Shown here piece by piece: positions 3,935 to 63,937 of a DNA stretch of 64,000 nt (within the stretch, counting starts at the first letter, position 1; each line of letters starts with the position of its first letter). Where the stretch lies: assembly GCA_009746045.1 (NCBI GenBank), contig RPFO01000034.1:3146181-3210180 (forward strand), given 5' to 3'. Position numbers and translations under genes: made by a program. Source of the DNA: Mesostigma viride. Its lineage: Eukaryota > Streptophyta > Mesostigmatophyceae > Mesostigmatales > Mesostigmataceae. The notes beneath the pieces were generated by a model. That model was not told where the DNA came from and searched no databases. It saw nothing but the letters and a program-made list of their open reading frames with translations.

Positions 3935-4292
3935 TCATGGACCCATCCTTGCGCGAGTGATGCGGCCCTGGTTGCTTCTGTCTGGAGCAGGCCGCCTGCT
4001 TCCCACCGCAACCGGCGCTCCATCCTCACTATCCACGGCGTTCGAGCCAGCAGGGGCAGCAGCACCAGCGGCGCCGGTACGGGCCTCTGCGACCCGCTGC
4101 TCCTCCTCGGCTCGCTGGCACAACGCGGTGAGCCGAGCCAGCTCACGCTCTCTCTCCTGATGGGCCTCCTGGAGCGCAGTCAGTGCCTCCTTGGCTGCCT
4201 GCAGCCCTGCCGTTGCGACAGTGAATTGTTGCAGTGCGGGGGTGAGCTGGTTCAACAGTTCCCCTGTCCTTCGGACGCCATCCGTCAGCGCG
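3935..4292 (-). CDS. Gene A exon 23: C-terminal coiled coil and stop
   Basis: Encodes a heptad-rich helix ([19 protein letters not shown]) followed by a disordered Ala/Gly/Pro tail with basic residues, ending with a TGA at 3937-3935. The acceptor after TTCAG restores the Ser codon split by exon 22. Confidence 0.82.
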
Positions 4293-7200
4293 CTGAACGA
4301 GTTCCACACCAGCCATCGCAAGGGGACCAGGGATATGGGACAAAGGTTATAATCAAGTCAAATTAAGGGGACAAGGGAAAGGAGCATCATGCAGCAGCCG
4401 GTGAGCTTAGCTCGATAGAGATGGGACAGCCATCCCAGGCCCCAGTGAGTCCAGATTCAGCAGCAATTTATGTCCTAATTGGGCTTCCAGTTTGATTTAA
4501 TGATCATTTCCAGTCGCAGGGCAATCACAACACGACGGCCTGTTCACTAAATAACTGTCACGTGTGCAGACCTCACCTGAGCCTCGGGCAAACCTCCGGT
4601 GATGGCGCGCCGAAGCATGGGTTCACCGCCCCGCGGATCCGTTGGGGAAGGTCCGGGTCTTCAGGCCGCTCGATGCCGCTGCTCTCCCTCTGGTACCTGC
4701 CGTCCCGGCTGATGACACGGGGCAGCCTGGGCGCTTGGCCACGCTGTCGACACGCGGCTGCGACTCTTGTGACGTAGCTTTCCGCGTCCTCCGCTCGGTC
4801 CAGGATGAGCACGGTGCCAAGCGCGGCATGAATGACGTTTCTCATCATGCCAGCCAGGTTACGGTCGCGCAGCATCTCCGCGTTGTTGAGCTCCACCACC
4901 GAGGTCGCGAACCGGGGGTTACCTGGGCAGCGTTGGCACACAGGGTGCGGGCAGCGGCCAGCAACGAGGCCGTACCGGAGACAAGCACAAGTCGAGAAGA
5001 AGAGATGCAGAGAGTGATGCCAGGTTTATGGTATCACGTTGACGACATATACAATATAATGCATAGGGCTCATGGCATGCGGTGGATGATAGGAATCGAT
5101 GCATGAAAAGGGCAGGATGCCAGGAGCATGGCAGATAGCACGTGCCGGCCTTGCCCGCAAGCCACTGCATGATTCATAATGCCTTTCAAAGTCACCGGCT
5201 CTTCCTTACCAGGCAGACTTCTGGTCATACAACAAGAATTCTCCCCCAAATTTATGTCAACTTGACGGCTACCGCGGTAGCATTGGCAGCAGCAGTACTT
5301 ATCAGCGCCACGCAGCGCCCCAACGGGTATTTGCCCAACATGTTTTATCCCAGGCAGCTAGGTTGTGAGGAAGCACAGATAAAACCCACTGGCTCCAGAG
5401 AAAGCCTCTGACATCTCTCAAAACTGTGTGATGAGAACACAGATGGCAAATGGTTTTGAGGCGTCCAAGGCACCTTGCCTACCCCTGCCTCCGTTGCCTA
5501 CACCCCACGACACTTTGCCTTCACCCTGCCTCTGGCTGGCAAGCTGCTGGGAGTAAATTGCATGGGAAGCTTGATATTAAGGGCAAGATAACAAGGGGGA
5601 ACGCACCCTAGAAAAATGCATGGGAAGCTTGATATTAAGGGCGAGATAACAAGGGGGAACGCACCCTAGAAAAATGCATGGGAAGCTTGATATTAAGGGC
5701 GAGATAACAAGGGGGAACGCACCCTAGAAAAATGCATGGGAAGCTTGATATTAAGGGCGAGATAACAAGGGGGAACGCACCCTAGAAAAATGCATGGGAA
5801 GCTTGATATTAAGGGTGAGATAACAAGGGGGGATGCACCCTAGAAAAATGGAGGAGGCAGCCCTGCATGATTGCAGCACTCAGCATGCACATTAGTCTTT
5901 GCCACCCTTACTAGTAGTATAAGATAGCAGCATGTTAGGAAAAAAAGAATCAAAGTGACTGTTATCAATCTCAGCAACGCTGTCGATCCAAACACAAACA
6001 AGGTGCTCGTCGATTTTGCACCCAATTACAAGCATGCCAACTACACAGCTTGCTAGCTAAGTGCTAGCTAATCGCCGAATCGCTTGCTCGAGCCCAGCAC
6101 ATGCTCGCTAATCGTAGCTTCCACAAGGGCACGATGAATGATGATGCTCATTACCTAGTAGCAGGAACACCACATCGAACATCAGCCCCAGCGTCGGCTG
6201 TAAAGCCAGCAAGGCGTAATAACCATTGTGCCGTCATTCACACACACACACATCGCGCAGGTTCGACACGTAATAAGGCAGCAAACGCCAGTCACAGATA
6301 GAGCGAATCGGCATGGCTGATCGGGCGGTAAAGGAAGCCATCATGGTCTTAATTCCTCCCCACCGCCATGACTCCCCACTAGCACTACTACCCGACTCGT
6401 GCTGGATCTCGACCCATACAGACCTGTAATTTGCGGCGGTGACAGCATCAACCTCTCGTGCGGCAGTTGCTCCTCATGGTTGTGCTGCCACGCTTCATCG
6501 ATCACGCACACAGGCAGGCGCAGTTTCCGTAATCTTTGTCGGTCCTCCAGCGTGGCGGACGGCGTGAGCACGACCAGCCGCATGTTCCTGGGCGACAGGC
6601 TGCACAAATGTGTTTGAGGAAGACTTGGAGTAAAGTGATAAATACTCTTTAAAAAAAGTGTTTCAGAGCACGTTCAGCACATGTACGCGCCATCAAAGGC
6701 ACAACAGGTAAGACGGCCCAGATCAACCTGAGTTGCAGGGGACAAGGAAGGGACAGGCAAGGCAGTAACCAGGAGGTAGCCAGGGTTTGCTAAGGCGTTA
6801 TAAAACCGATAGCCGCCAGCTGGCGATAAAACCCCAAACGGGTCTTCAGTGCAAAAGTTCGCGTGGGCGGCGTGGCAAGAAGAAGGGCAGTCTGTGCTGG
6901 TAGCATTTCTCATAATAGGCAGTGGACAAAAATGTATTTCGGTTGAGACGAAGGGAGGGAGGGAGGGAGGGAGGGAGGGAGGGAGGGAGGGAGGGAGGGA
7001 GGGAGGAGGGAGGGAGGGAGGGAGGGAGGGAGGGAGGGAGGGAGGGAGGGAGGGAGGGAGGGAGGGAGGGAGGGAGGGAGGGAGGGAGGGAGGGAGGGAG
7101 GGAGGGAGGGAGGGAGGGAGGGAGGGAGGGAGGGAGGGAGGGAGGGAGGGAGGGAGAGGGAGGGAGGGAGGGAGGGAGGGAGGGAGGGAGGTAGGTAGGT

Positions 7201-10200
7201 AGGTAGGTAGGTAGGTAGGTAGGTAGGTAGGTAGGTAGGTAGGTAGGTAGGTAGGTAGGGAGGTAGGTAGGGAGGTAGGTAGGTAGGTAGGGAGGGCAAG
7301 TGGGCAAGTGGGCGGGCGGGCGGGCAAGTGGGCAGGCGGGCGGGTGGGGGTGGGTGGGTGGGGGTGGGGGTGGGGTGGGGTGGGTGGGGTGGGTGGGTGG
7401 GTGGGTGGGTGGGTGGGTGGGTGGGTGGGTGGGTGGGTGGGTGGGTGGGTGGGTGGGTGGGTGGGTGGGTGGGTGGGTGGGTGGGTGGGTGGTGGGTGGG
7501 TGGGTGGGTGGGTGGGTGGGTGGGGTGGGGGTGGGGGGGTTAGAGAGTGAGAGAGTGAGAGAGTAAGAGAGTGAGAGAGTGAGAGAGTGAGAGAGTGAGA
7601 GAGTGAGAGAGTGAGAGAGTGAGAGAGTGAGAGAGTGAGAGAGTGAGAGAGTGAGAGAGTGAGAGAGTGAGAGAGTGAGAGAGTGAGAGAGTGAGAGAGT
7701 GAGAGAGTGAGAGAGTGAGAGAGTGAGAGAGTGAGAGAGTGAGAGAGTGAGAGAGCGAGGGAGAGAGGGAGACAGAGACAGAGTCTACCAAAAGAAAAGC
7801 ACACCCACCATGGAAAAAGCTAATCATTATGGCAACAAGTACCCACCAGGACAAGGGTGAGCCACGACCCAAGGGACCACCCATCCACCAGAAGCGTCAA
7901 CCCTCAAGAAAGATCACCCACCAAGACAGGAGCTTTGCATCGCCTGCGTCGCGCACTGCTGTGAGCATCAGCAGCGTCCCGTAGGCGCTCCCTCTGGCCC
8001 TGGCATTGATCACCGCCCGCCGCTGTTCTTCGCTCAGCCCATCCCTGACCGGCCGGCTGCGCAGCTCGGCCTCGAGCTCTTTCGCCTCTCTTTGCTCTCT
8101 TTCGTGCGCTTGCTGGACCAACGCGAGTGCCTGCTGGAGCACGCCGACGCAATCTGGACTCTGCGCGGATGGCAGCGGCTGGCATGTAGCGAACATCTTG
8201 CGTGCGTCGGTCATCGGGCGTGAGCACATGTGGTGTGCCTGCCTGTGATTGTCTTCAGCGGCCTTGTGGTCCTGCCATTCACCCGCCACAAGGCCACCGG
8301 GTTGTCACAAACGAAGTCATGGCCAGGCTTTGTTAGGCAGCAGTATTGCATGTGCGGAGAATTTTGGGTCGCATCTGTGCTTCTACTGGTCCTAATAGTG
8401 ACCCGCAAGTGTCAAGGTCACCTAGGTACCTGACAAGGGGGGACGTTGTGGATAAATGATATACTGGAAATTTGTGCAACAGAGGAACCTCCACGTAACC
8501 TAAACATGTAATTAATTTTGCATCACCTATCGACTTAGATGTAAGTATTCATCCATCAGCAATCAAGTTGGATGTAAGTATTCGTACATCACCTATCAGG
8601 TTCAATCTAAGTATTCATTCTTTGCTTATAAAGTGAGACACAGGTTTTTCTCGCCAGTGTCTATTCACTACCTTCTTAGGAACCTCTCCAAGTGCCTATT
8701 GCTTCTCTGCTCGTACAACTAGACGAGACTTGGACACCATGCTGCGGAACGCTGGGGGAGCCAGGCAAGAATCGCAATCACGGTGCTTCACGCACGGAAC
8801 ACAATAGCACTAAGTGCTCGCTGCGATAAAACTTGTGCTTGCAGTCTTGAAAAGGCGCCTGGCGGTTTTGGCCTGTGCATGCGATACTGAGCTACACCCA
8901 ACTATAAAACTCGTATGGTTCAAAGGAGAATACCAGACAATCCTCTGTAGACGCTCTTGTGCGGAGACTAATGTGGCGCTTGAAGCACGAGCCACTCTTG
9001 CCTTTCCCTTTGGCTCCCTACCCATCCTTTTCCATGCAGGCCTGTAACAAGAACGAGCCATTTGTGAAAGTTCCTCGGTACTCGCGCGCGTAAGGAAGGC
9101 AAGGACGCTGGCAAGGTCTGGTGGGCAGTTGTTTTGGCCCGGTAAGCACAAGCATCGCCGCATAACAATCCAAACTTTACCGCGACTGCCTTCTGATAGA
9201 TTTCAGCGTGCGGTGTTATGCGATCCCGGAAAGCCATGACATCCCGTTTGCAGCGCTGCAGGTTTTCAGACAGCCCATGCTGGTTGATGAAGGAAAATGC
9301 CAGCCGTAGAGGCTCCAACACCCCAGCGTTAGACACAGGCGCCAGCTGCAGCACGTAGTCGCCATCTACCCGCCCCGCTCGCGCACGGAGGTGTTGCGCC
9401 GGGATGGTAACAACTCCATCACGCTCACGCGTGATCTCAAATCTGGGGTGGCCGTCGGCCAGTGTCGCGTATTCTGGTTCCTGCAAGCCGCCACCTGGCT
9501 GGGCATCCCTGGGAAGCACGGACAGCTCCAGGGTCCCTGAGTACTCGGTCACGCGGTTGCCAAACCTGAAATAGCGCACAGAAAGGCCAGCCACCAACAG
9601 CTGAGGTAAGTATTGCTTGCTGGGGAGAGATCTTTACAGCATGTTTTTTAACTGGTATAACACGTCACTCAGTTCTTAAATTGGCCAATATTTGCAGCCA
9701 TAGTAGGATCCAATGGAATCCATCATCGCTCATCGGCTATCCATTGTGGGGTCCATGCAGTCCTCATCGCTCATCAGCTATCCATTGTGGGGTCCATGCA
9801 GTCCTCATCGCTCATCGGCTATCCATTGTGGGGTCCATGCAGTCCTCATCGCTCATCGGCTATCCATTGTAGGGTCCATGCAGTCCTCATCGCTCATCGG
9901 CTATCCATTGTGGGGTCCATGCAGTCCTCATCGCTCATCGGCTATCCATTGTGGGGTCCATGCAGTCCTCATCGCTCATCGGCTATCCATTGTAGGGTCC
10001 ATGCAGTCCTCATCGCTCATCGGCTATCCATTGTGGGGTGCATGCAGTCCTCATCGCTCATCGGCTATCCATTGTGGGGTCCATGCAGTCCTCATCGCTC
10101 ATCGGCTATCCATTGTGGGGTCCATGCAGTCCTCATCGCTCATCGGCTATCCATTGTGGGGTCCATGCAGTCCTCATCGCTCATCGGCTATCCATTGTGG

Positions 10201-12983: not shown

Positions 12984-13040
<57 letters not shown>

Positions 13041-19000: not shown

Positions 19001-22000
19001 TATGACCTTGGGCCGGACTTTTTGTGTTTGCCGCTGCAGGCATCGCCCAATACAAGGATCCAAGAAAACAAATCATCCAAGCATGAGTGAATCAAAAGTA
19101 TGGCTCCTAACCGATCCTGTGGGACGCGTGATCCAGGCCAAAGCCACCTCCCATGTAACCAGAGGGCATCCATGTTAATGTCTCTTTCCAAACAGCTCCT
19201 AAATGGCTGGACGCCTGAGGTACTACAAAAAGAGCAAGCTCAATGGCTTTCCTTATGGTCTATGTACAGATATGTGGTGGCAAAGGAAATTCGGGAAAAG
19301 ATAACTGGGCGCTACCTGGCCATCTGGCGCAGCCATAAGAGACCAGGAGGCAGGTAGATTGAGCTTAGGTGTTTTGTCGTTGTTCTGCTGCCATAGCGCT
19401 GTCTGTCATCGATTCAAGTCTCCCATGATACAGGACACCCAGTGGGGAATGAGTGGAGGTTGGCCAGGAGATGCCCCTGATATTTTTCTGCTATATCTTT
19501 GCCAGATCACAGTTGCGCCCTAATAATGCTCGAAAAGCTTAGATTGGCGCCAGGCTGCTGGTAGATGTTTGGCAGAGCTGCAAAATGCGCCATGGCCGCC
19601 TCGGTGTATGCGTTCATCATCCCTCGCCTTCCCCCTCAAACATACACAAACCCCCACACACCGCACCCCAGAATAGACTCACATCTTTAATTGTGGAAGA
19701 TGTCCTGCCACCCTAGAGAGACTTGCCACAGTATTATGTCAAGTACAGTATATCTGCTGGTGGGTTACATACACATGGGCTTCCTAGATAGTAAATTGAA
19801 GATCGTGTCATCGTCACACTTGCAGAGCCCACCATGGGATCAAATCGATGCTGGTTGGTGCTCGAGCCATTCCACGCTCTCCACAGCCGGCAATGTGCTC
19901 ATCCATGCAAGCGGACAAACATACCGGGAAGCACAAGTCCCATTCCTTAGGCACCCTCGTCCCGGCCCCATTCCTGAGCTCCAGCCGGGTGGTGCAGTTG
20001 TCTTGCTCCACCAGGGGCTCGTGGCACACCTGGCCGGCAGGAGGCCACACGACGGTGGCGGTGAGGGTCCTGGGGACTTTGTTGAACTCTTCCATCAGCA
20101 ACCTCTCGACGTCACCGTCCTCCTGGAGATATCTGTGGATGCAAGCAATCAACCACGGCCATCCAAACCCAAGACTGCCAATCAACCCCCTGTGGTTCAT
20201 CTATGCTCTTGTTTTCCATTTTCTTCTCCTTTGTCTTCCCACCCCGTCTCAGCCACCACCACAACCCAGTTTTGCCAGGCTTCACAGCTATCCGTTGTAA
20301 AGATTTGGCGATCAAGGACAAAAATAATGCCTTTTGATGCCAATAAAGCATGTACAAGTTTCGAACCCGACCACATTCCTAAAGATATTTCCTTGCGAAA
20401 CAGCCTAGACAGTTTGTAACGCATAAGACGAGTCATGCCCTACCTGGAGGACACCTCCCACAGGTGGGGTGACGGCACCACACCCTCCGGGCATGCGAAT
20501 ATGGACTGGGGCTCCCGTAGCAGATACATGGTGCACGCAGTGGCTTCCTCATCGCTGCCCCCCCCGCTCTGCGTCCTCGCAATGCTGGCATCTGCCTCGT
20601 TGGCGCCGTTGGCCCGCCGCCCTATGCCACGGCCGCGCCCGCCGCCCGCTTGGTTGGGCGTCGCTGGGGCGAGTTTATCCTGTTTTTTGAAGGCCACGAT
20701 GCTGCCCACAATCTTCATGTAGTCGGGCGAGTTGGCCTTCTTGACTTGGACGACCACCTTCTCCCCCACAATGTAGCTGACCCTGCCATACGTCATCCGT
20801 TGGAAGAGATCACCCTCCAAGCCCTGGGGGGGCTCTCCCCTGAACGGCGTGGTCAGCGCCACCTGGCCATCCCAACAGGCGCACGCAAAAAGGAATGTCG
20901 AGGCAGCAGACAACACCAAGAAGGCAAGGGTGACAATACAGAAGATTAGACTAGGCATGGGTTGAGAATGTCCAAGGTCGAAAGTAAGCAAGACCAAGAA
21001 GGTAAGACCAAGCAAGATGGACAGACTGGGGTTCCGAGGGTGAGGATCTTGGACACTGTGAAAAAGCAGAGCGAGTGGCCTTTCCTGTGGTGTTATGTGA
21101 GGGGAGCTATGGGGATTAGCCCAGGGCCACGGAACACTGAGGACAGCAGAGCGGCCGAGGAAAAGGTCGACGAGAGGTTTTGTGCCCGAGACTTTGTACT
21201 CGGTGCGGGCGAGAAGTTATGCACGGAACCTGCTCGTTTAGGCAGAGACTTCATGGTGAACCCGTGGGGGGTCCAGAGATGTCAGACGTACTCCAACTCC
21301 ACTGTTTCCATCCTTTGCCAGCAACGTCCTGTACCATGTCCTGCTCCTGCCCTGCTCTCAGAGATCTTTCCCGACCACAACGTTTCTTATTAATTTGATA
21401 CAACGCTGTACCAGGAATGGATCTCGAGCTTGTGCACTCCGATGCGCAATCTATTAACAATAACGAACATTTATTCTCCAAGTATCTCTAGCTCTGTCCC
21501 CCGCTGCTACTGTAATGCGATGATGGTAACGGGACGCCATCACAGCATCATGCTGTCATCTGCAGGGTGCATTGTCACAAACGCATGGCATGCCGAGGGC
21601 CCACCAACCGTGCGCAGCACAAGCAGCTGCAGAATGCAACACGCCGCAAGGTCTCTCCTGCATACCAACTGATGCTGTTGCACAAGTAATTGCATCTGAA
21701 GTCGGCACAACATGCCGAGGGTAGTACATCTACTGGGATGGGGCAAGAAACCTGTTCCCACACTAGGAAGTATCGATTGGCAGTATAGGTGACAACATCG
21801 ACCAGCAGCTGCAAGGGGGGGGGGGGCAGAAGTAGAAAATCGTAAGGGCTTCTTTCCTCTGATTGTCTTTGCGAGCACTAACAGCGCTCTTGTGGCCTAC
21901 AAGGGGAGCACACTTATGGGTGACACACGTACGCGCTCTTGTCGCACCACCACCAGGACACACATGCTTACCCTCTTGTCATGCTCCAGGTGGCAGTCGT

Positions 22001-22423
22001 GAAGCCACTGCTCGAAAAGGGACATCACGTTGCGGGACTTGTTCTTCAGGCAGTTAGAGTTCGAGCTACGCTCCAGGCTGGTCTCCAGGGGTGGGTTGAG
22101 GCTCCACTTGGTGTTGTGCACGGCAGGGTTGCTACCGAGGAAGATGGCACCCCGCACACGGTTGAGCTGCTCCAGGGTCGCTGCGTCCTTCACCTTGGAA
22201 CCCATGGGCAACAGGACGCTGCGAAGTATCCATGATGGTGGGAACGGGACAACGTTGTGTATTGAGGTCGAATGAGCAATAAGACTATGTCTGATGCCGA
22301 GAATGAGACAAACAAAGCAGGACCTCAGCAGTCTGGGATGGGTATTAGTATGATGAGGGCAATTATCACAGTCTGTCGAACAACTGGAGATCGTAGACGA
22401 AAACAAAGCCTTCCATGGAATGA

Positions 22424-22508
<85 letters not shown>

Positions 22509-25500
22509 GAGGGAGGGAGGGAGGGAGGGAGGGAGGGAGGGAGGGAGGGAGGGAGGGAGGGAGGGAGGGAGGGAGGGAGGGAGGGAGGGAGGGAGGGAGG
22601 GAGGGAGGGAGGGAGGGAGGGAGGGAGGGAGGGGGAGGGAGGGAGGGAGGGAGGGAGGGAGGGAGGGAGGGAGGGAGGGAGGGAGGGAGGGAGGGAGGGA
22701 GGGAGGAAGAGAGAGAGAGTTAGAGAGAGAGAGAGAGAGGGAGAGAGACAGAGACACAGAGAGACAGAGAGACAGAGAGAGAGAGTTAGAGAGAGAGCTA
22801 GAGAGAGAGAGAGAGGGAGAGAGACAGAGAGACAGAGAGAGAGACAAAGAGAGAGAGCAGCACTGGAGAGTTGCAGGGGTTCAGCCCGCCTCCTCACCTT
22901 TCAGATGTCTGTTGCGAAATGTTTGTTCTCGCTGTTAAGTATATTAATGCCCTTGAAAGTAGTTAAACTGAACATATTTGATAGAAAAAGGAATGATCAA
23001 ACTAGGAAAAGCCAGCAATGGTTTTCGCAATGTCCCCCCTCCCCCACACCCCCCCCTCATATTGCTCATTTGCAATTCAGCAAGTTGCCCCATTCATTAA
23101 ACTCTCAGACCTGAAATAGGCTACTTCAGTTGGTAGGGCAGCATTACCTCAAAGACGCACAGCGTCAAGCGCATTCTTTGTGGCAACTTGCAACCCTGCC
23201 AAGAGCAACAAAAGGTTTTTAAGCTGCCAGTTGTAAAATCTATGAGAGCTCCACCCAGCCAGGAGGCCAGCTAGGAAGGCAACCCACACTAAGCTTCAAG
23301 CAGAAACATTCTACTATTGAGCAGCTTCGCTGCCCTACCAGAAACTCCCAGTGAGTCCAAGTAAGCACCATAAGAAATCTTCTGCTGCAGACCGCCGCAT
23401 CCTCAGACTGTATCTCTCCGAGGCATCACACTGCCAGGCTCACCTGGGCAACGAACCGATTGTTTCAGCGTGCCTCTGCGATAAATAACAGCAAACGGGA
23501 AGCGGTGCCCACACACGTTCACCTGTCTTTGTGGCTCACCTGGGTACAAACTCGTAGGGCATCAACCGCCCCTTGTAGAACACCTCCAGCTGCTGCTCCA
23601 GGGGCCACTTGACCCTCTTCAGGGTGTCCACATGGCAGGAGGGCAGGTACCAGAGGCGCACCTGTGACATAGAGAAGAGAAAGGTGTGAGCTTATGGTGA
23701 ACAGATGCCTATAACAAGCTTGCATCCCTGTAGGAAAGTACCACAGGGGCATCTGGTAGAGTGACATGCGGAAATAGACAATTAAAATGGTATGGTTCTA
23801 AAACCAGTTACTATGGGGACCAGGATGCCAGTTCGCCACCAACGAGGTTCCAGGAACAAATATTCAAAGAAATGATGTCGTGAATTGCGACGTGGCTATA
23901 AGCATTGCAAGATTGGACGTGATCAACGACGAAAGGGGACAAACATTCAGAGCACACAACCAGGAACACAGACACAATCTGACACAGCTCGAGAAACCTG
24001 GCATAATGCTGAAAACCGAGTCCCAAGCACCTGAAATCATGCTTTCAAATCATGAATAAATGATGTAAATGCTGAGATACAGCACATGCTTGTCAACAAG
24101 GATGTCGCCGAGAGACGCTACTTGGTGAGTCAACAAGGCGATATTCAGCACGGCAAACACTTGAACAGTTGTTATGCCAGCTAGAGCTGTCAAAAGGATA
24201 CGGCACATCACGGTCGCAGAATACCTCCATTGCTGGCACGGGGGTGCCATCAGCCTGGGCAGACACTGAATGTCTGCAGGCAACCCGACGGTCACTCTGC
24301 CACCGCTAGTAGCAAATATCAGACCCAAGACACATCACCACGACATGGGACGAATCCATCGTGGTGGTCGCCAAGCAGCATAGCAACGTGTGGGCCTGTA
24401 TGCTGCACACAAATCCTCCCCTGGTGCTCGTGCCTGGTGAAGCAACACAATGTGGGCAGAGGCAACGTAGTCCAAAATGAAGGTGGTACCACCAATACCT
24501 TAATTTGCTCGCCATAGCGCTTGAGAGACCCCTGCTCCTCCAAGGAGCCATCACTCCCCGAGTCGATGGTGAACTCATACGTGTGGTGCACCCCTTTACG
24601 CTTGGCTGCCCACTTGTGCAACAGGCTGTACCGGTCCACGTAACAGCCATTGCCGTCCTCCTCCTTCTCCTCTCCCTTGCTCTCCTCCCCATCTCGGCTG
24701 TCCTTCTCGTCCTCGCCGTCATCATGCTCCAGCTCCTTCATGTCCCGCTCGTGCAAGCAGCGCTCCTCCCGGGCCACCTCCTCCCCGAAGTTCTTCTGCC
24801 CCGCTGCCTTGAAGTAGACAAACGCTGCGGTCAGCTCCACCGGCCCTCCCACGTACGGCCGCTGCCCCAGGCTCAGCATGAAGAAGTACACGTGGCGCAG
24901 CTGCCTGTTGCACCGAGCTCATGGCAGCCATAAGGCAGGACAACCCACATGCAACAAGGGTGGGTGCCAGCAAATAGCAGCAAGCGAGCGTGAGATATTC
25001 CCACTTTGATAAGATATCCCCAGAAAAGTCCAGACCCCAACACAGCTCAGCATCCATTAAGTACTACTGATAGAAGTCAAGAACAGAACTGCAAGAAGCA
25101 GAAAGTGGGTTCCTATTCTCCCAGCATCATTACCAAAAAACCCTCCATGGTCTGCCTAAAAAAGCATGAGCATGTGAAGTTTCCGAATCCGTAACTTAAT
25201 GCAGCTGCACCTCATGAAGTCTAGTCAGTGCAAAGATGGTGCTGTGAATGACACAGGTCCCACGGATACCATTACAACTGTGCGTTACAAAGCGCAGCAT
25301 ACACAAGGCAAACGGTAGCACACATGTCGAGCAAGTAAGACGCCCTTTCGGCCCATTGAAAACATGTTTCCCATCCCTCACCGGCAGAGATACTTGAACC
25401 CAATCGGTGCGCAGCCCTTCGTCCGAGCGCGCGCACGGTCCATGGTCGCCATGATGTGCAAGGCCTGCTCCTCCTTGAGTGAGCTGATGATGAAGATGGT

Positions 25501-28500
25501 GAAGTGGTCATGATTGGCCTCCATGTCCTTGATGTGCTGCACCAGGGGCTTGCAGGCGCTCAGGTGGGACTCCACAAAGCTGCCCACCCAGCTGCCCCGT
25601 GGCCTCTTGGTCACTTCACTCACAAACCAGTCTTCTCCCCGCTCCCTTCTACGCTCAAACTCTTCCTGAACAAACCAACAACCACCATGTACAGCAATGA
25701 ACAAGGATCAAATACAGAAAAAAAAACTCATCACGTACAGCAAACAATTATCACGGCTATGAAAACAAACCAGCGTACCACGCACATGCCCCGCAGGGAT
25801 ACCGGCCACCCAGCCACCCAGCCACCCAGCCACCCAGCCACCCAGCCACCCAGCCACCCAGCCACCCAGCCACCCAGCCACCCAGCCACCCAGCCACCCA
25901 GCCACCCAGCCACCCAGCCACCCAGCCACCCAGCCACCCAGCCACCCAGCCACCCAGCCACCCAGCCGGACAGCCACCCAGCCGCCCAGCCGCCCAGCCG
26001 CCCAGCCGCCCAGCCGCCCAGCCGCCCAGCCGGACAGCCACCCAGCCGCCCAGCCGCCCAGCCGCCCAGCCGCCCAGCCGCCCAGCCACCCAGCCACCCA
26101 GCCACCCAGCCACCCAGCCACCCAGCCACCCAGCCACCCAGCCACCCAGCCACCCAGCCACCCAGCCACCCAGCCACGCCGTGGCAAGTTGGGAAGGCAG
26201 ACACATTGAAACCAGTGAAGAACTAGTAATGAGGGGGTGGGTGGTTCATGCACATATGTGTACAGCACAGCGCTGCGATACCGAAAGACTTGGCTTCTTC
26301 ACCCGGCTCGATATGTCTCCCTAGGGTCGAATCGGCATATTTGGATCGATCACATCCATTTCATGGCTAGACATTAGCCGAGTATCCTCGATGCCGCTGA
26401 TATCGCAAAGGGAAAAAAGAAAAAGAGTCCAGCATGGACCCATCATGTGCATGTGCGCAGTATGTCCCACCAGAACTGGCAGGTACCAACACACAAAGAT
26501 GCACGAACCTACGAAGATGCAAAGGCTCTGTCTTCTATTACGAAGTGGACCATGGCAAACCATTGTAATAGCAATTGACAAGAAAAAGAGTACAACTTTC
26601 CCACAAGGTCTCATAGCTAGCTGCTGCGCTGGCCCCGATGTGCATCAGAGCTCCAACAGCATACCTAGTCACCAAAGTGTCTTCGATTTCGCTAGATCCT
26701 CAACAAACTCAAACACAGTATGAACTGCCTTGAAGACTGCGGGCAAACCCTAGCACTGTTACATCCAAGCCATCACCAAACCTGAGATCTTCCTTTTAGT
26801 TTTTAGAGGATGAAAGGAGGAGTTCGCGTTTATATGTTGTATAAGCCACAAGTCCTTCCCGCTTTGCCCGACACTCACAATCAAAAAGTCCTTAGCTATG
26901 TTGCAAGCAAGACCTATAATTTATGTTCCTTCCCTCCAGGGACCCAGAGCTTTCTAGAACTCCACCCCATGCACAGCTTACATCCGTCAACCCGTGGCAT
27001 GTGTATGGGTGGTGTATAATGACTGCCACTGCTGGTAGGAAAGGCATCCTCAAAGAAGTCGCCATTCTGGAAATATGGCCTCCAGAATATGCCCACCGTG
27101 GACAGCCGCAGCTCGCACACCGCCTCGCCCTTCATCTTGGTGATCATGATCAGATCTTCTCCCAGGTAGAAACCGGCTGCCTTGGAGCCAGTCCCCCGCT
27201 TTGCCAGACGCCCGTCGCAGAAGTACTCCTCCATGAGCTTCCTTCGCTCCTCGAACGCTTTGTGTTCTGCTGTCCCGGGAGTGAAGGGATTGGGATCCTT
27301 CCACGCATCTTGGTCCGGATCTGTAGGCGGTGGCGATGAGGATATGCATAGATGTGCGTCTCAGTAGTCGGATAAAACATGTGTACAGTGCGCAGTCTGC
27401 TCACAACTTCCAGCCCATGAAATGATGTACTAGCTACCACTAAAGCACAATGTGCGGCAAACAGCGTTGTCTTCGATGACAAGTGTGTTCGATGAAAGAC
27501 TGATCACATGCCATGGAACCAGCCATAAGCCTTGAATGGGGGCAGGTGCGAGGGTTGCACGTGCTTTCTTATCGCTTATCCCTAAGCGAGGCACTAAAAG
27601 GTATTCAGTAAGCCCACTTCATGTCTATGGTAGTGTTAAGCAAACCTATTTTGTAAATCCAACCGCACGACATACCTAATAGGCTGTCCTGAAACCGCCA
27701 AGCGAAAAAAAAAAAAAAAAAAGAAGCTCGACCGAAGTAACCATGCGCACCCCCTCTCCTTGCCAACAGAAGGGCCGGCGTGTTAGGCCCCAAGGTAAGG
27801 GTGGACAGCAAGAATTACCCAAATACACCACTGCGAGTGCCCTCAGCAATCTTGCCACTGTGAAAAGGGCTCATCTTCCAGGCTTTGTGGCCAGCTCTAT
27901 ATATACTTGCTGCAACTGCAGCCATAATAAGTCCTCAAACTATTCTCACTAATAATGCGTTTTCATCAAATACAAAAAAAAGCTAGTGTGCAAGATCCTA
28001 TTTCAAGCAAGACGTACTGGGGTCCTCCTCAGGGATGATTCTGTTCACGGGACGGTAGTGATCTGTCGCCCAGTTTGCCAACCGCTTCACATCCATCCCG
28101 ACACCATTGTCGCTGATAACGATGTGGCCTTTGCGGAAGTCGTTGAGGTTGTCGATCTGTTTGCAGGCCAGACAACGGTACGAGTAGGGAAGGGCACATA
28201 GGAGTCATAGATTCATCTAGGATATCTGCAGCGGTACGAGTAGGGAAGGGCACGTAGTAGTCATAGATTCATCTAGGATATCTGCAGCGGTACGAGTAGG
28301 GAAGGGCATGTAGTAGTCATAGATTCATCTAGGATATCTGCAGGAAGTCCGGGTTGATAGAGGCGATAAACGGGCACCTACGGTTACTCTAGATCAGTCC
28401 CTCCTCGTTAGAAGGGGAGGGGAGGGGAGGGGAGGGGAGGGGAGGGGAGGGGAGGGGAGGGGAGGGGAGGGGAGGGGAGGGGAGGGGAGGGGGGAGGGAG

Positions 28501-31500
28501 GGGAGGGGAGGGGAGGGGAGGGGAGGGGAGGGAGGGAGGGGAGGGGAGGGGAGGGGAGGGGAGGGGAGGGAGGGAGGGGAGGGGAGGGGAGGGGAGGGGA
28601 GGGGAGGGGAGGGGAGGGAGGGAGGGGAGGGGAGGGGAGGGAGGGAGGGGAGGGAGGGAGGGGAGGGGAGGGGAGGGAGGGAGGGGAGGGGAGGGGAGGG
28701 GAGGGAGGGAGGGAGGGAGGGGAGGGAGGGGAGGGGAGGGGAGGGAGGGGGGAGGGAGGGGAGGGGAGGGAGGGGAGGGAGGGGAGGGGAGGGAGGGGAG
28801 GGGAGGGGAGGGAGGGGAGGGGAGGGGAGGGAGGGGAGGGAGGGGAGGAGGGGAGGGGAGGGGAGGGGAGGGAGGGGAGGGGAGGGGAGGGGAGGGAGGG
28901 GAGGGGAGGGGAGGGGAGGGAGGGAGGGAGGGGAGGGGAGGGAGGGAGGGGAGGGGAGGGGAGGGAGGGGGAGGGAGGGGAGGGGAGGGAGGGAGGGGAG
29001 GGAGGGGAGGGGAGGGGAGGGGAGGGGAGGGAGGGAGGGGAGGGGAGGGGAGGGAGGGGAGGGGAGGGAGGGGAGGGAGGGGAGGGGAGGGAGGGGAGGG
29101 GAGGGGAGGGGAGGGGAGGGGAGGGGAGGGAGGGAGGGAGGGAGGGAGGGGAGGGAGGGGAGGGGAGGAGGGGAGGGGAGGGGAGGGGAGGGGAGAACAA
29201 GAGTTGGGGTCGTGTAGGCAATCTGTGGAGGTTGAGGCAGTTGACTATCAATAAAAACAAGTATATGAGGTCTATTTTGCTAGTAAAGCATGGATGGGTA
29301 TGACGTATCTGGCAATACCTTGTCAGGGGAGTAAACAGACAGGTTGATCCTCTTTGGCTGGCTGTCGTCCTTGGCGTACAACAGCGCCTGGAACGAGTTG
29401 TCGATGGGCTCCGCCAGCACCAGATGCTCCGCGCGCATGCCGTGGAGGGCTGGTGGGGGGCAGCGTGGAGAAAGTTAATACACCATGAGAGTGGGGGGAG
29501 CACTAACTGGCTGGGTTAAATCGACTTCAGAGGTGCTGAATTTCATTATTATGACCTGATCTGGAGCTATTCTGCCTACCTGGGTGAGGAGAAAAACCAT
29601 GTAGCAACAATCCACATATTTGTGTCCTATTACTGGCGTCAAGAGGAGCAGGGAAAGGGTGAACCTTGTGATATCGACACTAATCTTTGAATAATATCGC
29701 CAGGAAAGAGTGGAGTTGGTGGACAGCCCTTCAAATAGGATGCTGGCCAGGAACCTTGTCGGGGGGGAGAGAATTCTGAGACCCCATGCCACAAAAAACA
29801 GGTGTCACATGCACGATACATCCCTGTTCACATGAAAATCTTGTATACTTGTACTGATATGAGCGGACAAGTTGGGGTTGCAGTTCCAGTAGCACTCCAA
29901 GCATCGGCAAAACACAAGTCCACTCACTACCATAGAGGTACCACTTACTTCTGGTTTCTATACTATAGAGACCACTTACTACCATAGAGGTACCACTTAC
30001 TACTGGTTCCTATACTATAGAGACCACTTACTACTATAGCGGGACCACTGACTACTGGTTTCTATACTATAGAGACCACTCACCATAGAGGTACCACTTA
30101 CTACTGGTTTCTATACTATAGAGAGCACTCACTACCATAGAGGTACCACTTACTACTGGTTCCTATAATATAGAGACCACTTACTACTATAGCGGTACCA
30201 CTGACTACTGGTTCCTATAATATAGAGACCACTTGCTACTATAGCGGTACCACTGACTACTGGTTTCTATACTATAGAGACCACTGTCTACCATAGAGGT
30301 ACCACTTACTACTGGTTCCTATACTACAGAGACCACTTACTACTATACATGCCATATTACTACTCTACTCTACTCTACTCTACTCTACTCTACTCTACTC
30401 TACTCTACTCTACTCTACTCTACTCTACTCTACTCTACTCTACTCTACTCTACTCTACTCTACTCTACTCTACTCTACTCTACTCTACTCTACTCTACTC
30501 TACTCTACTCTACTCTACTCTACTCTACTCTACTCTACTCTACTCTACTCTACTCTACTCTACTCTACTCTACTCTACTCTACTCTACTCTACTCTACTC
30601 TACTCTACTCTACTCTACTCTACTCTACTCTACTCTACTCTACTCTACTCTACTCTACTCTACTCTACTCTACTCTACTCTACTCTACTCTACTCTACTC
30701 TACTCTACTCTACTCTACTCTACTCTACTCTACTCTACTCTACTCTACTCTACTCTACTCTACTCTACTCTACTCTACTCTACTCTACTCTACTCTACTC
30801 TACTCTACTCTACTCTACTCTACTCTACTCTACTCTACTCTACTCTACTCTACTCTACTCTACTCTACTCTACTCTACTCTACTCTACTCTACTCTACTC
30901 TACTCTACTCTACTCTACTCTACTCTACTCTACTCTACTCTACTCTACTCTACTCTACTCTACTCTACTCTACTCTACTCTACTCTACTCTACTCTACTC
31001 TACTCTACTCTACTCTACTCTACTCTACTCTACTCTACTCTACTCTACTCTACTCTACTCTACTCTACTCTACTCTACTCTACTCTACTCTACTCTACTC
31101 TACTCTACTCTACTCTACTCTACTCTACTCTACTCTACTCTACTCTACTCTACTCTACTCTACTCTACTCTACTCTACTCTACTCTACTCTACTCTACTC
31201 TACTCTACTCTACTCTACTCTACTCTACTCTACTCTACTCTACTCTACTCTACTCTACTCTACTCTACTCTACTCTACTCTACTCTACTCTACTCTACTA
31301 TACTATGCCATGCTATACTATACTATACTATACTGTGCCATTAGGCACAGTGCAATTCAAAGTAGCGACAAAATCAACACAGTATGTACCAAAATTCTTC
31401 CACGCCTGACTGAGGCCAAGGGTGTCCTCATGGGAATAAATCATTTGCCAACCTAATCAAACAACACGCATGAGAGAGCAATTCTGATGACAACTCTCGC

Positions 31501-32814
31501 AGGTGAAAAATAGTTTTGTAACGCCTCTATCAATAAAAAGAGCAGGCAAAGGATGTCAGCAGCGCATGTGCACACATACAAAATTCAGCGGCAAGCATGA
31601 AATAGCAAGGAATGGCCTGGCTGTGTTACTGAACTGAATTTGATTTTCTTCCCCAGGCAAGTTCCCTGGGGTGTCACTTACAAAGAAATTCTGGTTTGAT
31701 GGTGCCTTCCGGCTGGGTTGGATGCTGAATCTTTATGCGCTGCATTGGCGCCTCGACTGCAAACCATACGAATAAGGGGGCGGCAGGTGGGGGTGTGGTG
31801 GGGGGTTAGGGGTGGAGGATTCGGGGTGGGGGCGGAGGGGGAGTATAAGTGAGACAAATACAAAAAATTGAATCACACTTGGTCACAAGCTTTTTACCCC
31901 ACAGGTCAGAAGGTCAATGTAAGCGTACATGGTGGGCTGTAAGTCTACTTTTATAAACGGCAAACTCCTCAGGCACACTCCTTGATAACTAGAGCTGGTG
32001 AGCTGCAGTTTCAACATGCCAACGTGGCACTGCCTGCATTTTTGCAACCTGCTGGTGCGCTGGTAAAGATGTTGTGCAATCGGCCCCCTTCCCTCCCCCC
32101 TTTTTCTCTCCAGCCCCGTACTCCTCGCCTTTAAACCCTCAACCCACTCCAACCCCCACCCATGCCTACTCACTTCATGAGCCCGCCAGGCTTTACCATG
32201 CGCTGATGTGCTGTTCTTGGCCACAAGTCAACACCATGGTGGCGTGATGCTGAGGGAGGCAGGTAAACTTATGGATGCGGGGCCAACACCCAGCTCAATA
32301 GCGACAGTTAAACCAGTGAGGAAGAGTGATGAGCACAACAGTGGCTCTAAATGCTTGGGAGCACCTACCTTGGGAAAAGTTTTTACCTTGGGAGTGGCAG
32401 TAAACATGAAAAAATGACAACTGGTAAAATGACAACCTGCCACCCACAAGGACTTTTCTTTTAGGTATCGGTCTTGTCGCAATGATGGTCAAAGCCATCG
32501 CATAATATCAGCGCCACGTACGCAGCCTGAGTGCCTGACGTACTTCGGCATGTGACCTGCTTACCTTCGTCAAACAGAGCGTAGAGCTCCCTTGGTTTGC
32601 TGCGGCCTGGCTGCCATGCAGTCCCATCGGCACAGATAATTCGACATGTTTCTTGTTGCCCGCGCAGCCGGGCAGGAAATCCAGGCAGTTGCGTAATCTG
32701 AGCTTTGACATCTTGGGTAAGGTCGAGCAGTGTTTCGGGGAACAACAAATCTTTTACTTGACCATCGTCTCGATATCGTAATGTGACGTTCACAGGCTCA
32801 TAAGAAGCCTCCAT
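3935..32814 (-). CDS. SMCHD1-like: Gene A: SMCHD1/GMI1-like GHKL ATPase with SMC hinge (23 exons)
   Basis: Exons in transcript order: 32814-32565, 31756-31682, 29449-29319, 28156-28018, 27320-27097, 25665-25382, 24904-24499, 23661-23540, 22218-21972, 20862-20444, 20132-19925, 19033-18766, 17393-16953, 16581-15454, 14808-13673, 12698-12570, 11585-11318, 11024-10922, 9565-9181, 8271-7922, 6599-6424, 4922-4577, 4292-3935. They sum to 7593 nt (2530 aa plus stop), with every GT-AG junction in phase. Residues 1-83 are ubiquitin-like. The ATPase has N-box E122/N126, D168-NGVG and GTGSK at 241-245. Beta-rich Ig-like segments fill the middle, a coiled coil precedes the SMC hinge (about 2238-2411), and a C-terminal coiled coil follows. 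In order and motifs this matches SMCHD1 (human about 2005 aa) and plant GMI1, nuclear proteins of chromatin silencing and repair. The start is the first in-frame ATG before the ubiquitin-like strand. MORC is a poorer fit because it lacks this hinge. Function is inferred from family only. Confidence 0.87.
4577..4922 (-). CDS. Gene A exon 22: SMC hinge, second half
   Basis: Encodes [24 protein letters not shown] and PCFGAPS. These align with GDTIILDNLDAANHY, LLTRDGDRI and VFGAPVP of the SMCHD1 hinge, the strongest family marker in the window. Length 346 nt, equal to B exon 22. Confidence 0.93.
4923..6423. other. Gene A intron 21, mostly unique sequence
   Basis: Between the two hinge exons. It holds the 58-bp minisatellite described separately. 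The rest has no supported gene or RNA. Confidence 0.6.
5559..5848. repeat. 58-bp minisatellite, five copies
   Basis: Five head-to-tail units of 58 bp, each starting TGCATGGGAAGCTTGATATT. The units are almost identical; the first and last carry a few changes. Sits in intron 21 of gene A. Confidence 0.95.
6424..6599 (-). CDS. Gene A exon 21: SMC hinge, first half
   Basis: Encodes [19 protein letters not shown] and VCVIDEAW, matching the CVVTLTTDAARRI strand-helix start of the SMCHD1 hinge. It ends in phase 1 so that the next exon opens with a Gly codon. Confidence 0.87.
6952..7780. repeat. Composite microsatellite: GGGA, GGTA, GGTG and AGAGAGTG arrays
   Basis: Successive arrays abut one another: GGGA (about 6952-7189), GGTA (7190-7292), a mixed GGGC/GGCA bridge, GGTG (about 7350-7535), and an 8-bp AGAGAGTG array (about 7540-7760). 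They fill over half of gene A intron 20. Long open frames across it are artefacts of repeat periodicity. Confidence 0.97.
7922..8271 (-). CDS. Gene A exon 20: coiled coil before the hinge
   Basis: Glu/Gln/Arg/Ala-rich helix with [19 protein letters not shown], ending in [18 protein letters not shown] and GDAKLLS. Length 350 nt, identical to B. I chose the acceptor that aligns with B exon 20. Confidence 0.87.
8272..9180. other. Gene A intron 19, no feature seen
   Basis: About 0.9 kb of mixed sequence between the last beta-segment exon and the coiled-coil exon. A short degenerate repeat around ATGTAAGTATTC (8540-8620) is present; nothing else is supported. Confidence 0.5.
9181..9565 (-). CDS. 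Gene A exon 19: last beta segment and start of coiled coil
   Basis: Encodes [31 protein letters not shown] and [13 protein letters not shown], then a charged helical tail. It marks the transition from Ig-like segments to the coiled coil before the hinge. Confidence 0.88.
9719..10310. repeat. 41-bp minisatellite, about 14 copies
   Basis: Tandem 41-bp units, each containing CTCATCGGCTATCCATTG and GTCCATGCAG. It lies in gene A intron 18. Because 41 is not a multiple of 3 and the unit lacks stops in some registers, it yields spurious long open frames on the plus strand. Confidence 0.96.
10922..11024 (-). CDS. Gene A exon 18
   Basis: A 103-nt exon with [20 protein letters not shown] and a final CTDR. 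Length equals B exon 18 exactly. I recognised it only by comparison with B. Confidence 0.86.
11318..11585 (-). CDS. Gene A exon 17: Ig-like beta segment
   Basis: Contains [40 protein letters not shown] and ends VRPG. It pairs with B exon 17 in phase and motif order. Confidence 0.88.
11586..12569. other. Gene A intron 16, no feature seen
   Basis: About 1 kb with no tandem array and no supported gene. Confidence 0.5.
12570..12698 (-). CDS. Gene A exon 16
   Basis: A 129-nt exon encoding [16 protein letters not shown] and [11 protein letters not shown], phase 0 at both ends. It pairs with the 123-nt exon 16 of B. Confidence 0.85.
12983..13038. repeat. (CAA)n trinucleotide array
   Basis: About 18 perfect CAA units in gene A intron 15. 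Confidence 0.95.
13673..14808 (-). CDS. Gene A exon 15: large segment with acidic linker
   Basis: Contains [29 protein letters not shown], an acidic run (DVDDEEEEA), [16 protein letters not shown] and [13 protein letters not shown]. Nucleotides 14515-14606 match B at 90 of 92 positions. The donor is GTATGT, phase 0. Confidence 0.9.
15318..15415. repeat. TTTTCCCTCTCCC-type polypyrimidine repeat
   Basis: Degenerate short units of CCCTCTCC(T/C)TTT in gene A intron 14, about 40 nt downstream (in gene A's sense) of the exon 14 donor. The plus strand is pyrimidine here, so the gene A transcript carries the purine strand, opposite to most other tracts in this gene. Confidence 0.9.
15454..16581 (-). 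CDS. Gene A exon 14: large Ig-like segment
   Basis: A 1128-nt exon. It contains [50 protein letters not shown] and [15 protein letters not shown]. Nucleotides 16449-16516 match B exon 14 at 67 of 68 positions, far above the surrounding level. The donor is GTGAGT and the exon ends in phase 1. Confidence 0.9.
16953..17393 (-). CDS. Gene A exon 13: Ig-like beta segment
   Basis: Opens with VGPPKAF and contains [19 protein letters not shown] and [14 protein letters not shown], ending RQRLLLFPG. The tail resembles the repeated ILKIRLLPG endings of Ig-like units in SMCHD1. Confidence 0.88.
17394..18765. other. Gene A intron 12, no feature seen
   Basis: About 1.4 kb of unique-looking sequence with only short chance reading frames. 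I see no repeat array, transposon end or RNA gene. Confidence 0.5.
18766..19033 (-). CDS. Gene A exon 12: Ig-like beta segment
   Basis: Contains [18 protein letters not shown] and [17 protein letters not shown]. The alternating hydrophobic pattern suggests an Ig-like fold of the central SMCHD1 region. B has the same motifs. Confidence 0.86.
19925..20132 (-). CDS. Gene A exon 11
   Basis: Contains [16 protein letters not shown] and VCHEPLVEQ, aligning with the EMARLPDRLSVTWPE stretch of SMCHD1. Phase 0 at the donor (GTATGT). Confidence 0.85.
20444..20862 (-). CDS. Gene A exon 10: BAH-like/beta segment with Gly-rich insert
   Basis: Contains LEGDLF and [11 protein letters not shown], then a low-complexity Gly/Arg/Ala insert, then [19 protein letters not shown]. 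The insert differs strongly from that of B, while the flanks are conserved. It aligns by position with the SMCHD1 segment after its WLKDCH motif. The BAH label is a guess. Confidence 0.85.
20863..21971. other. Gene A intron 9, no feature seen
   Basis: About 1.1 kb without array or gene. It is the counterpart of the gene B intron that received the MULE; no trace of that element is visible here. Confidence 0.5.
21972..22218 (-). CDS. Gene A exon 9: transducer C-terminal part
   Basis: Contains [19 protein letters not shown] and ends with [15 protein letters not shown]. The end aligns with the WLKDCHEKYDK motif of SMCHD1 and with gene B. Confidence 0.88.
22421..22860. repeat. (GA)n and (GGGA)n purine tract
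   Basis: A GA dinucleotide array (about 22421-22498), an 11-G run, a GGGA array to about 22706, then degenerate GA-rich sequence. It lies in gene A intron 8 and is pyrimidine on the gene's sense strand. Confidence 0.97.
23540..23661 (-). CDS. Gene A exon 8: [10 protein letters not shown] segment
   Basis: Encodes VRLWYLP and [17 protein letters not shown]. This corresponds to the FWNGRLIPY region of SMCHD1, part of the transducer domain after the ATPase. Confidence 0.88.
24499..24904 (-). CDS. Gene A exon 7: transducer-like segment with acidic linker
   Basis: Begins with [14 protein letters not shown] and GGPVEL, then runs through a long Asp/Glu/Lys-rich linker, then LLHKWAAKR and YGEQIK. 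The frame is open throughout, which shows that the frame break in B exon 7 is not ancestral. Confidence 0.88.
25382..25665 (-). CDS. Gene A exon 6: end of the ATPase core
   Basis: Contains [21 protein letters not shown] and [12 protein letters not shown], the last matching the FTAVVITG strand of SMCHD1. It ends in phase 2 inside an Arg codon. The exon is 27 nt shorter than B exon 6. Confidence 0.88.
25805..26176. repeat. 8-bp CCACCCAG satellite with a variant block
   Basis: About 46 units of GCCACCCA. A central block (about 25965-26090) uses the variant GCCGCCCA, bracketed by two GCCGGACA units. This higher-order pattern suggests a segmental copy within the array. In gene A intron 5. Confidence 0.96.
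26177..27096. other. Rest of gene A intron 5, no feature seen
   Basis: About 0.9 kb beyond the 8-bp satellite up to exon 5. No gene or RNA is supported. Confidence 0.45.
27097..27320 (-). CDS. Gene A exon 5: GHKL G2 box
   Basis: Encodes [20 protein letters not shown]. The GTGSK stretch corresponds to the GVGGK ATP-lid G2 box of SMCHD1. Length is 224 nt, identical to B exon 5. The donor is GTGGGC. Confidence 0.9.
28018..28156 (-). CDS. Gene A exon 4: GHKL G1 box
   Basis: Encodes [10 protein letters not shown], the DxGxG G1 box that contacts adenine in GHKL ATPases, followed by [11 protein letters not shown]. It is 139 nt long, as in B. By hand count it is about 70% identical to B exon 4. Confidence 0.92.
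28177..28343. repeat. 56-bp minisatellite, three copies
   Basis: Three 56-bp units, each starting GGTACGAGTAGGGAAGGGCA and ending near ATCTGCAG. It begins about 20 nt from the acceptor of gene A exon 4, so its first unit overlaps the exon's polypyrimidine and branch region. Confidence 0.95.
28411..29195. repeat. GGGGA/GGGA purine tract, about 0.8 kb
   Basis: A nearly pure run of (GGGGA) and (GGGA) units in gene A intron 3, between the two key ATPase exons. The plus strand has dense G-runs with G-quadruplex potential. The gene A transcript carries the C-rich strand. Confidence 0.97.
29319..29449 (-). CDS. Gene A exon 3: GHKL N-box
   Basis: Encodes [20 protein letters not shown], matching the AELIDNS N-box of SMCHD1. 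The Glu is the predicted general base and the Asn coordinates Mg-ATP. The exon is 131 nt, the same as B exon 3, and the first 112 nt differ from B at only one position. It uses a normal GT donor, unlike B. Confidence 0.92.
29930..30348. repeat. About 52-bp minisatellite, eight degenerate copies
   Basis: Units alternate between CCATAGAGGTACCACTTACT and CTATAGCGGTACCACTGACT variants followed by TACTGGTTTCTATACTATAG. Period is mostly 52 bp, with a 49-bp step. It directly abuts the TACTC array in gene A intron 2. Confidence 0.92.
30361..31295. repeat. (TACTC)187 perfect pentanucleotide array
   Basis: 935 bp made of 187 uninterrupted TACTC units, with degenerate TACTA units after it. It lies in gene A intron 2. 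The pentamer has no stop codon in one plus-strand register, giving a spurious 331-residue frame. Confidence 0.99.
31682..31756 (-). CDS. Gene A exon 2: linker before the ATPase
   Basis: A 75-nt exon with a GTTTGCAG acceptor and GTAAGT donor, phase 1 at both ends. It encodes a linker containing QRIKIQHPT and KPEFL. The same pattern (KRTKILHPT and APEFL) occurs in gene B exon 2, which supports both calls. Confidence 0.75.
32565..32814 (-). CDS. Gene A exon 1: ubiquitin-like N-terminal segment
   Basis: ATG at 32814 opens [19 protein letters not shown] short beta-hairpin, helix and beta pattern follows, ending in ELYALFDEG, resembling the N-terminal ubiquitin-like domain of SMCHD1. The donor is GTAAGC and the exon ends in phase 1. 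Gene B has no counterpart to this exon that I can find. Confidence 0.7.
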
Positions 32815-33120
32815 CTTCAATTTTTATCTCCCAGTTTTAGAACGGCCCTTTATTTGCTGCCCGTTGTTGCCAATGTCGATGCGGTTTCACGTTAAAAGGT
32901 GAATGTCGTGTGATGGCATTGTGTGCTAGGTGTTCAGCTTACGTATAGTCAGCTATATACTGTCGAAGTAGGCTACCCATTAACAGTAGATGCATACTTT
33001 ATCTGCACGCATTCATGAGGTTAGCGTTGAGTTAGGCAAGAGCCTCCATCGCGCTGTGGTAGCCTAATGAAAGCAGCTTTCAGTCCCGCATCCTCATGAC
33101 GCGGTTTGGTTCCGCGCCTC

Positions 33121-33283
33121 CGCGGCATTTTTTTTTTTCGGGTAAATGGGTATATTTATTATCCAATTATGGACCAGAGAGGTGAAATGGGAAATGAGTA
33201 TCAGCGAATCCTGAATGAAGGTGGTCACACACCTCCGTCCGCGGCATTTTTCCGGGTAAATGGGTATTTTTTATTAACCAATG
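33121..33283. repeat. Duplicated GCGGCATTTTT-CGGGTAAATGGGTAT motif
   Basis: GCGGCATT, a T-run, then CGGGTAAATGGGTAT and CCAAT occur twice in the same orientation, about 118 bp apart. A third partial copy (CCTCCGCGGCATTCTTG) is near 33324. Both full copies carry CCAAT-like text, so they could be promoter elements or a small repeat relic. Confidence 0.75.
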
Positions 33284-33357
33284 GGAAGATCGTTAGGGAA
33301 AGGGATACCAAGTAGCGACTAGCCTCCGCGGCATTCTTGTATGCATCGTTCATATCT

Positions 33358-34271: not shown

Positions 34272-63937
<29,666 letters not shown>

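Follow-up and report, generated by a model that had tools for sequence, protein, structure and literature searches.

A divergently transcribed pair of probable SMCHD1/GMI1-type genes within an expanded family in Mesostigma viride

Introduction

The closest described systems are SMCHD1 of animals and GMI1 of land plants. In human SMCHD1, a ubiquitin-like domain (UBL, residues 25-109) is followed by a strap (110-120) and a GHKL ATPase domain (121-395) that contains E147/N151 and D184; a UBL-less construct shows activity yet no dimerization (PMC6620310). The ATPase is followed by the S5 or transducer domain, a long middle and an SMC hinge, for which dimerization and a clamp model have been described (PMC4628070). 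GMI1 also couples a GHKL ATPase to a C-terminal SMC hinge, a likeness drawn here from its description (PMC5651269). DMS3, another protein with an SMC hinge, belongs to this broad group and is reported to be restricted to angiosperms (PMC4607528), but it is described as having no ATPase motif, unlike the proteins treated below, which carry the GHKL domain and its motifs (PMC5651269). The MORC family shares the GHKL and S5 fold (PMC5651269).

Here we describe two genes, A and B, that fill a window of 64,000 nucleotides (positions 3146181-3210180 of Mesostigma contig C1413; C-numbers label contigs throughout). We read them, at a probability of about three in four, as a divergently transcribed pair of the SMCHD1/GMI1 type that arose by an ancient duplication, within a family that expanded in Mesostigma. 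What we describe is the expansion of a family of a known protein type, in which the N-terminal exon has been swapped. A literature search returned no paper on an SMCHD1-like family in Mesostigma among the matches listed; the term "smc" is absent from the main text of one Mesostigma genome paper (PMC6947507), and "dms3" from that of the other (PMC7027972).

Structure of the gene pair

Gene A lies on the minus strand (32814..3935, a span of 28.9 kb) and gene B on the plus strand (34272..63937, 29.7 kb). The first-pass annotation of the window had described two head-to-head 23-exon paralogs of near-equal span, with 22 corresponding exons, six of them identical in length, and one spacer of about 1.46 kb. 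Rebuilding the genes from the DNA bore this out: exon 1 is the only exon without a counterpart, exons 3 (131 nt), 4 (139), 5 (224), 18 (103), 20 (350), and 22 (346) have the same length in A and B, and the start codons stand 1457 bp apart. The correspondence was found by comparing the open stretches of both window halves, with exon borders placed by hand, and exon-level BLAST E-values down to 1e-128 rule out chance resemblance.

The exons of A, rebuilt from the DNA, occupy 32814-32565, 31756-31682, 29449-29319, 28156-28018, 27320-27097, and 25665-25382 (exons 1-6); 24904-24499, 23661-23540, 22218-21972, 20862-20444, 20132-19925, and 19033-18766 (7-12); 17393-16953, 16581-15454, 14808-13673, 12698-12570, 11585-11318, and 11024-10922 (13-18); and 9565-9181, 8271-7922, 6587-6424, 4922-4577, and 4292-3935 (19-23). 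Those of B, placed by homology to A, occupy 34272-35556, 36271-36333, 37689-37819, 38526-38664, 39571-39794, and 40574-40884 (1-6); 41716-42144, 43150-43277, 43809-44046, 47954-48390, 48653-48866, and 49334-49595 (7-12); 50191-50640, 51377-52528, 53027-54183, 55264-55386, 56022-56295, and 57226-57328 (13-18); and 58728-59103, 59633-59982, 60944-61110, 62460-62805, and 63625-63937, the last including the stop codon (19-23). Donors are GT in 22/22 introns of A and in 21/22 of B, the other being GC (the GC-AG intron after exon 3), and all 44 acceptors are AG; since the sites were chosen by hand, this fit is not independent evidence. Independent agreement comes from P0001, a public Mesostigma viride protein of 2530 aa (Mesvir1 18184, Mv09471) and the best protein match of A, which differs from the hand-built gene only in an exon 21 acceptor placed 12 nt earlier.

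A is a single open frame of 2526 aa without an internal stop, its stop codon lying in exon 23. B as assembled is not one open frame, the frame changing inside exon 7 (429 nt in B vs 406 nt in A). The earlier claim that intron phases agree throughout therefore holds when the parts of B before and after exon 7 are each read in the conserved frame, and fails when B is read straight through, the phases being off after that exon. The public counterpart of B, P0002 (Mesvir1 18185, Mv09472; 4199 aa), is a chimeric model that contains B exons 1-19 and then sequence of other copies: its exon 20 is 96.7% identical to that of the downstream copy E vs 91.7% to that of B, and a stretch after exon 20 is 99.5% identical to the downstream copy C in exon 15.

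Domain organization

The sequences show a GHKL ATPase and a transducer close to the N-terminus and, beyond a very long middle part, an SMC hinge close to the C-terminus. The ATPase is encoded by exons 3-7 in both genes (24499..29449, minus strand, in A; 37689..42144, plus strand, in B). Pfam HATPase_c_3 (PF13589) scores just above its cut-off of 25 bits in A (25.6 bits, E 1.3e-5) and B (25.4 bits, E 1.6e-5), and below it in P0003, a family member on another contig; in A the domain also matches SMCHD1 in the PDB (6mw7). A has motif I (E122/N126), motif II (DNGVGM at 168), and GTGSKAAG at 241; the motifs of B are intact and the same (DNGVGM at 509, GTGSKAAG at 582). The ExxxN of motif I and DNGxG of motif II are also kept in P0003. 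The transducer, encoded by exons 8-9, is recognized by the SMCHD1_S5 model (PF22899, cut-off 27) in A (residues 526-620; 21972..23661, minus strand; 33.9 bits, E 3.6e-8), and falls below the cut-off in B (43150..44046, plus strand; 15.6 bits, E 0.015). PF22899 is not among the Pfam matches listed for P0003 and P0004, the latter being the public model of copy G.

The hinge, encoded by exons 20-22 (4577..8271, minus strand, in A; 59633..62805, plus strand, in B), was recognized with a profile of five Mesostigma hinges, that of B among them. Against the PDB, this profile aligns with the SMCHD1 hinge (6n64, E 2.7e-7) over positions 14-204 of 210, the next match being a sperm protein (E 0.0024, about 50 residues). 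A four-protein Mesostigma profile gives the 6n64 hinge (E 4.4e-7) and the 6mw7 ATPase (E 6e-7), followed by a match at E 0.008. None of the five hinge pieces reaches the Pfam SMC-hinge model singly. NCBIfam yielded a single, chance-level match with P0001 and P0003, and Rfam gave none in the window at gathering scores. In protein searches by shared exact words, where candidates sharing most words were scored, all matches (2-5 per search) were from Mesostigma.

These sequence features make it well supported that A and B are paralogs of one family of the SMCHD1/GMI1 kind, as the earlier annotation had guessed: the GHKL motifs, an S5 domain above cut-off in A and a hinge that aligns along 6n64 all point the same way. 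A is similar in size to animal SMCHD1 (about 2530 vs 2005 aa) and its domains follow one another in the same sequence, preceded by a predicted UBL-like domain. The Mesostigma proteins differ from SMCHD1 in their strongly diverged hinge and middle, in the number of loci (at least 10), and in the B-type copies, where another N-terminal exon replaces the UBL.

The first exon

Exon 1 of A (32565..32814, minus strand) is predicted to encode, in residues 1-83, a ubiquitin-like (beta-grasp) domain that takes the position of the SMCHD1 UBL. From the end of the exon to the motif I glutamate there are 39 residues in A, and from the end of the UBL to the same residue 38 in SMCHD1 (PMC6620310). The predicted fold is ubiquitin-like; SMCHD1 6mw7 is absent from the 50 VIA entries listed for it, which speaks neither for nor against the assignment. 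Exon 1 of B (34272..35556, plus strand; 428 aa) is unrelated to that of A and homologous to exon 1 of P0003 and of copies D and G. Pfam SAP gives E 0.65 in B exon 1 and 0.0013 in D, both under the cut-off, and does not match G or P0003. Searched alone against PDB sequences, exon 1 gave chance-level matches for A (E 1.6) and for B (E 0.6).

In a genome search in which 19/19 candidates were scored, the UBL-like exon (residues 1-85) was matched solely at A (1 of 18 matches). The SAP-like exon 1 is found in both groups of the unrooted N-half tree described below (in B, and in P0003 and G), and the UBL-like exon in A only. Either A kept an ancestral UBL, exon 1 elsewhere having been replaced repeatedly or spread by exchange, or A newly gained its UBL.

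The family and its history

A search of the genome (439.9 Mb, 2243 contigs) found at least 10 family loci, five of them on the contig of the window (A, B, C, D, and E); such counts are lower bounds, 19 of 161 candidates having been scored in one search. ATPase and tail are both present in 4 of the 10 (A, B, P0003, and G). Copy E begins at about 3302444 of C1413 on the plus strand, with exons 15-20 seen and possibly more beyond the fetched part. Copy C, on the same strand with exon 15 at 3318280, is contained in P0002 from about exon 10. P0003 (2785 aa) extends from 3381124 to beyond 3404065 of C1324, and copy G (P0004) from 3076890 to beyond 3094773 of C1106, both on the plus strand. On the minus strand of C1106, P0005 has an SMCHD1-like tail with exons 14-15 at 3055853-3059087. 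Copy F (C1513, about 885548, plus strand) shows parts of exons 14-15 in 3.9 kb; the stop at the first codon of this stretch precedes the exon and so does not show the copy to be broken. A more divergent locus (C1106:9933188-9935600) shares 30% of its residues with A over a stretch of 127 aa and gives E 4e-12 in a BLAST against A alone, and searches of PDB and Pfam with it gave zero matches.

In copy G, the asparagine of motif I is changed to aspartate and the aspartate of motif II to asparagine. Because of these changes, ATP hydrolysis by G is improbable, and the copy may encode an SMCHD1-like protein with a dead ATPase.

Three of the loci deserve a further remark. Copy D (C1413, about 3230838-3234332, or 84655-88152 relative to the window; minus strand) is truncated: it has an intact B-type exon 1, a duplicated exon 3 and exon 4, and later exons were not found in the fetched DNA. 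The public model P0005 (C1106:3055853-3072144) joins an ankyrin-kinase-HECT-RZ-finger gene to SMCHD1-like exons 14-23 across an intron of some 358 nt; the join could reflect a genuine, recent fusion of the two or a faulty annotation. The divergent locus on C1106 encodes an SMCHD1-like ATPase that is a possible true GMI1 orthologue.

The view of A and B as an isolated unit is not supported. In a tree of eight rows over exons 15-20, B pairs with E (100/100), A comes next (86/93), and P0004 pairs with P0005 (100/100); two of its five inner branches are open, leaving C, P0003, and the C1106 pair without a fixed place. Row F fills 43% of the columns of this tree, and row E, read from BLAST ranges, includes a few intron-edge residues. 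Over these exons, A and B are therefore not each other's closest relatives. B and E are 88.6% identical in amino acids there, with a dS of 0.12 and a dN/dS of 0.52. An unrooted tree of the N-terminal half, with four rows, separates A and B from P0003 and G (100/100); its row G joins BLAST pieces, with one between-piece stop set to X and the exon 3 piece, read separately, left out, and row B has one X at the frame break.

Between A and B, amino acid identity is 73% in exons 3-6, 58% in exons 8-13, 61% in 14-15, 54% in 16-20, and 43% in 21-23. The corresponding dN/dS values (NG86; exons 1, 2, and 7 excluded) are 0.28, 0.49, 0.45, 0.45, and 0.41, which are consistent with constraint since the duplication. 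dS is 0.64-0.78 (0.64 in exons 14-15, 0.78 in 16-20), and 1.54 in exons 21-23. A second divergent arrangement, on C1106, has tails from a much younger duplication, since its exon 14 pieces are 96% alike (dS 0.023, dN 0.017).

Alternative readings

The break in B bears on whether both genes are functional. It falls near a run of seven G (41929..41935, plus strand) in the acidic stretch of exon 7. Its likeliest cause, in our view, is an indel of the assembly or a mutation that arose very recently. The frame change is present in the assembly, frameshifts or premature stops mark the 7570 pseudogenes counted in the genome (PMC6947507), and copy D of the same family is already a fragment, so B could be a decaying copy and A the only functional gene. 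Yet the flanks of the break keep their similarity to A, P0003, and G in the correct frames, B is open outside the break, its dN/dS against A is below 1, and a homopolymer is a usual site of assembly indels, the published assembly being PacBio-based (NIES-296, 442 Mb, with Illumina reads and optical maps; PMC6947507); we therefore regard decay as improbable, at odds of about one to three. Slightly less credible still is a genuine extra intron in exon 7, which would leave a shorter loop in the B protein. P0002 evades the break in this way, splicing out 41843-42093 and joining HRE to IESG; GAG followed by GTATGT is, by eye, a good donor, and 251 nt comes close to the shortest intron of each gene (262 nt in B, 284 nt in A). 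The intron would, however, delete the segment YRDRLTQLYKWA, whose counterpart is kept in A, P0003, and G alike, and the chimeric nature of P0002 elsewhere makes its joins weak evidence.

The family assignment itself could be mistaken if A and B were MORC-type ATPases, and the ATPase module of SMCHD1 is structurally close to MORC (PMC6620310). The alignment along the SMCHD1 hinge and the presence of PF22899 in A tell against this, and MORC chains are absent from the PDB sequence matches listed for the Mesostigma proteins. Typical MORC proteins have, to our knowledge, no SMC hinge. We consider a MORC origin very improbable.

The SMCHD1/GMI1-type reading is favored by the exon-by-exon homology of A and B, Pfam scores of A that exceed the cut-off for both SMCHD1_S5 and HATPase_c_3, SMCHD1 structures as the strongest PDB profile matches, catalytic motifs in A, B, and P0003, the UBL-like predicted fold at the right place, the dN/dS constraint, and the CpG peak at the spacer discussed below. 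It is weakened by the frame break and the low S5 score of B, the failure of the single hinges to reach Pfam, and the fact that the CpG peak is not unique. Because the protein-search matches lie within Mesostigma, the likeness to GMI1 claimed here is one of architecture, from which orthology does not follow.

The spacer, and what the pair may do

The 1457 bp between the start codons (32815..34271) are a candidate shared promoter region. CpG observed/expected reaches 1.10 there, more than in any other of the 251 steps across the window (median 0.63); among 820 steps of a wider 224-kb region (median 0.72) the spacer takes 12th place, so the peak is not unique, and the starts of P0003, G, and D likewise lie in or near high CpG. 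Methylation in Mesostigma is reported to be lowest at transcription starts (PMC6947507). Its CpG content looks promoter-like, and the spacer is a plausible promoter region for both genes; it may work as a two-way promoter, and A and B may be co-regulated. Compared with 30 kb of C1106, it gave a sole match of 19 nt (E 0.48). A sigma-70 promoter scan of the window was set aside as not meaningful in a eukaryote.

By analogy with SMCHD1, the hinges would join two chains, ATP binding would close the N-terminal heads, and the resulting clamp would hold or compact chromatin, for silencing or DNA repair. The ubiquitin-like exon 1 of A would aid head dimerization as in SMCHD1, and the different exon 1 of B, possibly DNA-binding (SAP-like), might alter head dimerization or targeting. 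A and B might further be co-expressed and form a heterodimer, the B head closing with the UBL-bearing A head and B exon 1 aiming the clamp at DNA. The UBL-like exon matched at A alone and the CpG-rich spacer common to both genes favor this arrangement, which we nevertheless hold to be distinctly unlikely. If it were true, the SAP-type copies that multiplied around one UBL-type copy would make up a combinatorial clamp set in which a single partner is common to all.

On the lineage leading to land plants, Mesostigma belongs to one of the earliest branches. That it has a clear SMCHD1-like protein, probably with a UBL, suggests an early presence of the animal-style layout in green plants. With its extra copies, its swapped N-terminal exon, and one copy whose ATPase motifs are altered, the family lends itself to a natural test of which clamp parts are exchangeable.

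Repeats in the window

Intron 9 of B contains a Mutator-like transposon (45139..47589, plus strand) that is not part of the gene. It has inverted repeats of 467 nt (97%) and a transposase-like frame with MULE (E 1.3e-4) and SWIM (E 7e-4) matches just under their cut-offs; a script found no target-site duplications, and a 9-base repeat with an offset is visible by eye. Long microsatellite arrays lie in introns of A and B (6952-7771, 22422-22857, 28413-29195, 30360-31304, 44501-44912, and 61452-61724), and window positions 1-2506 form an (ATTC)n tandem array of 627 copies with 99% matches, adjoining a stretch of 7500 N.
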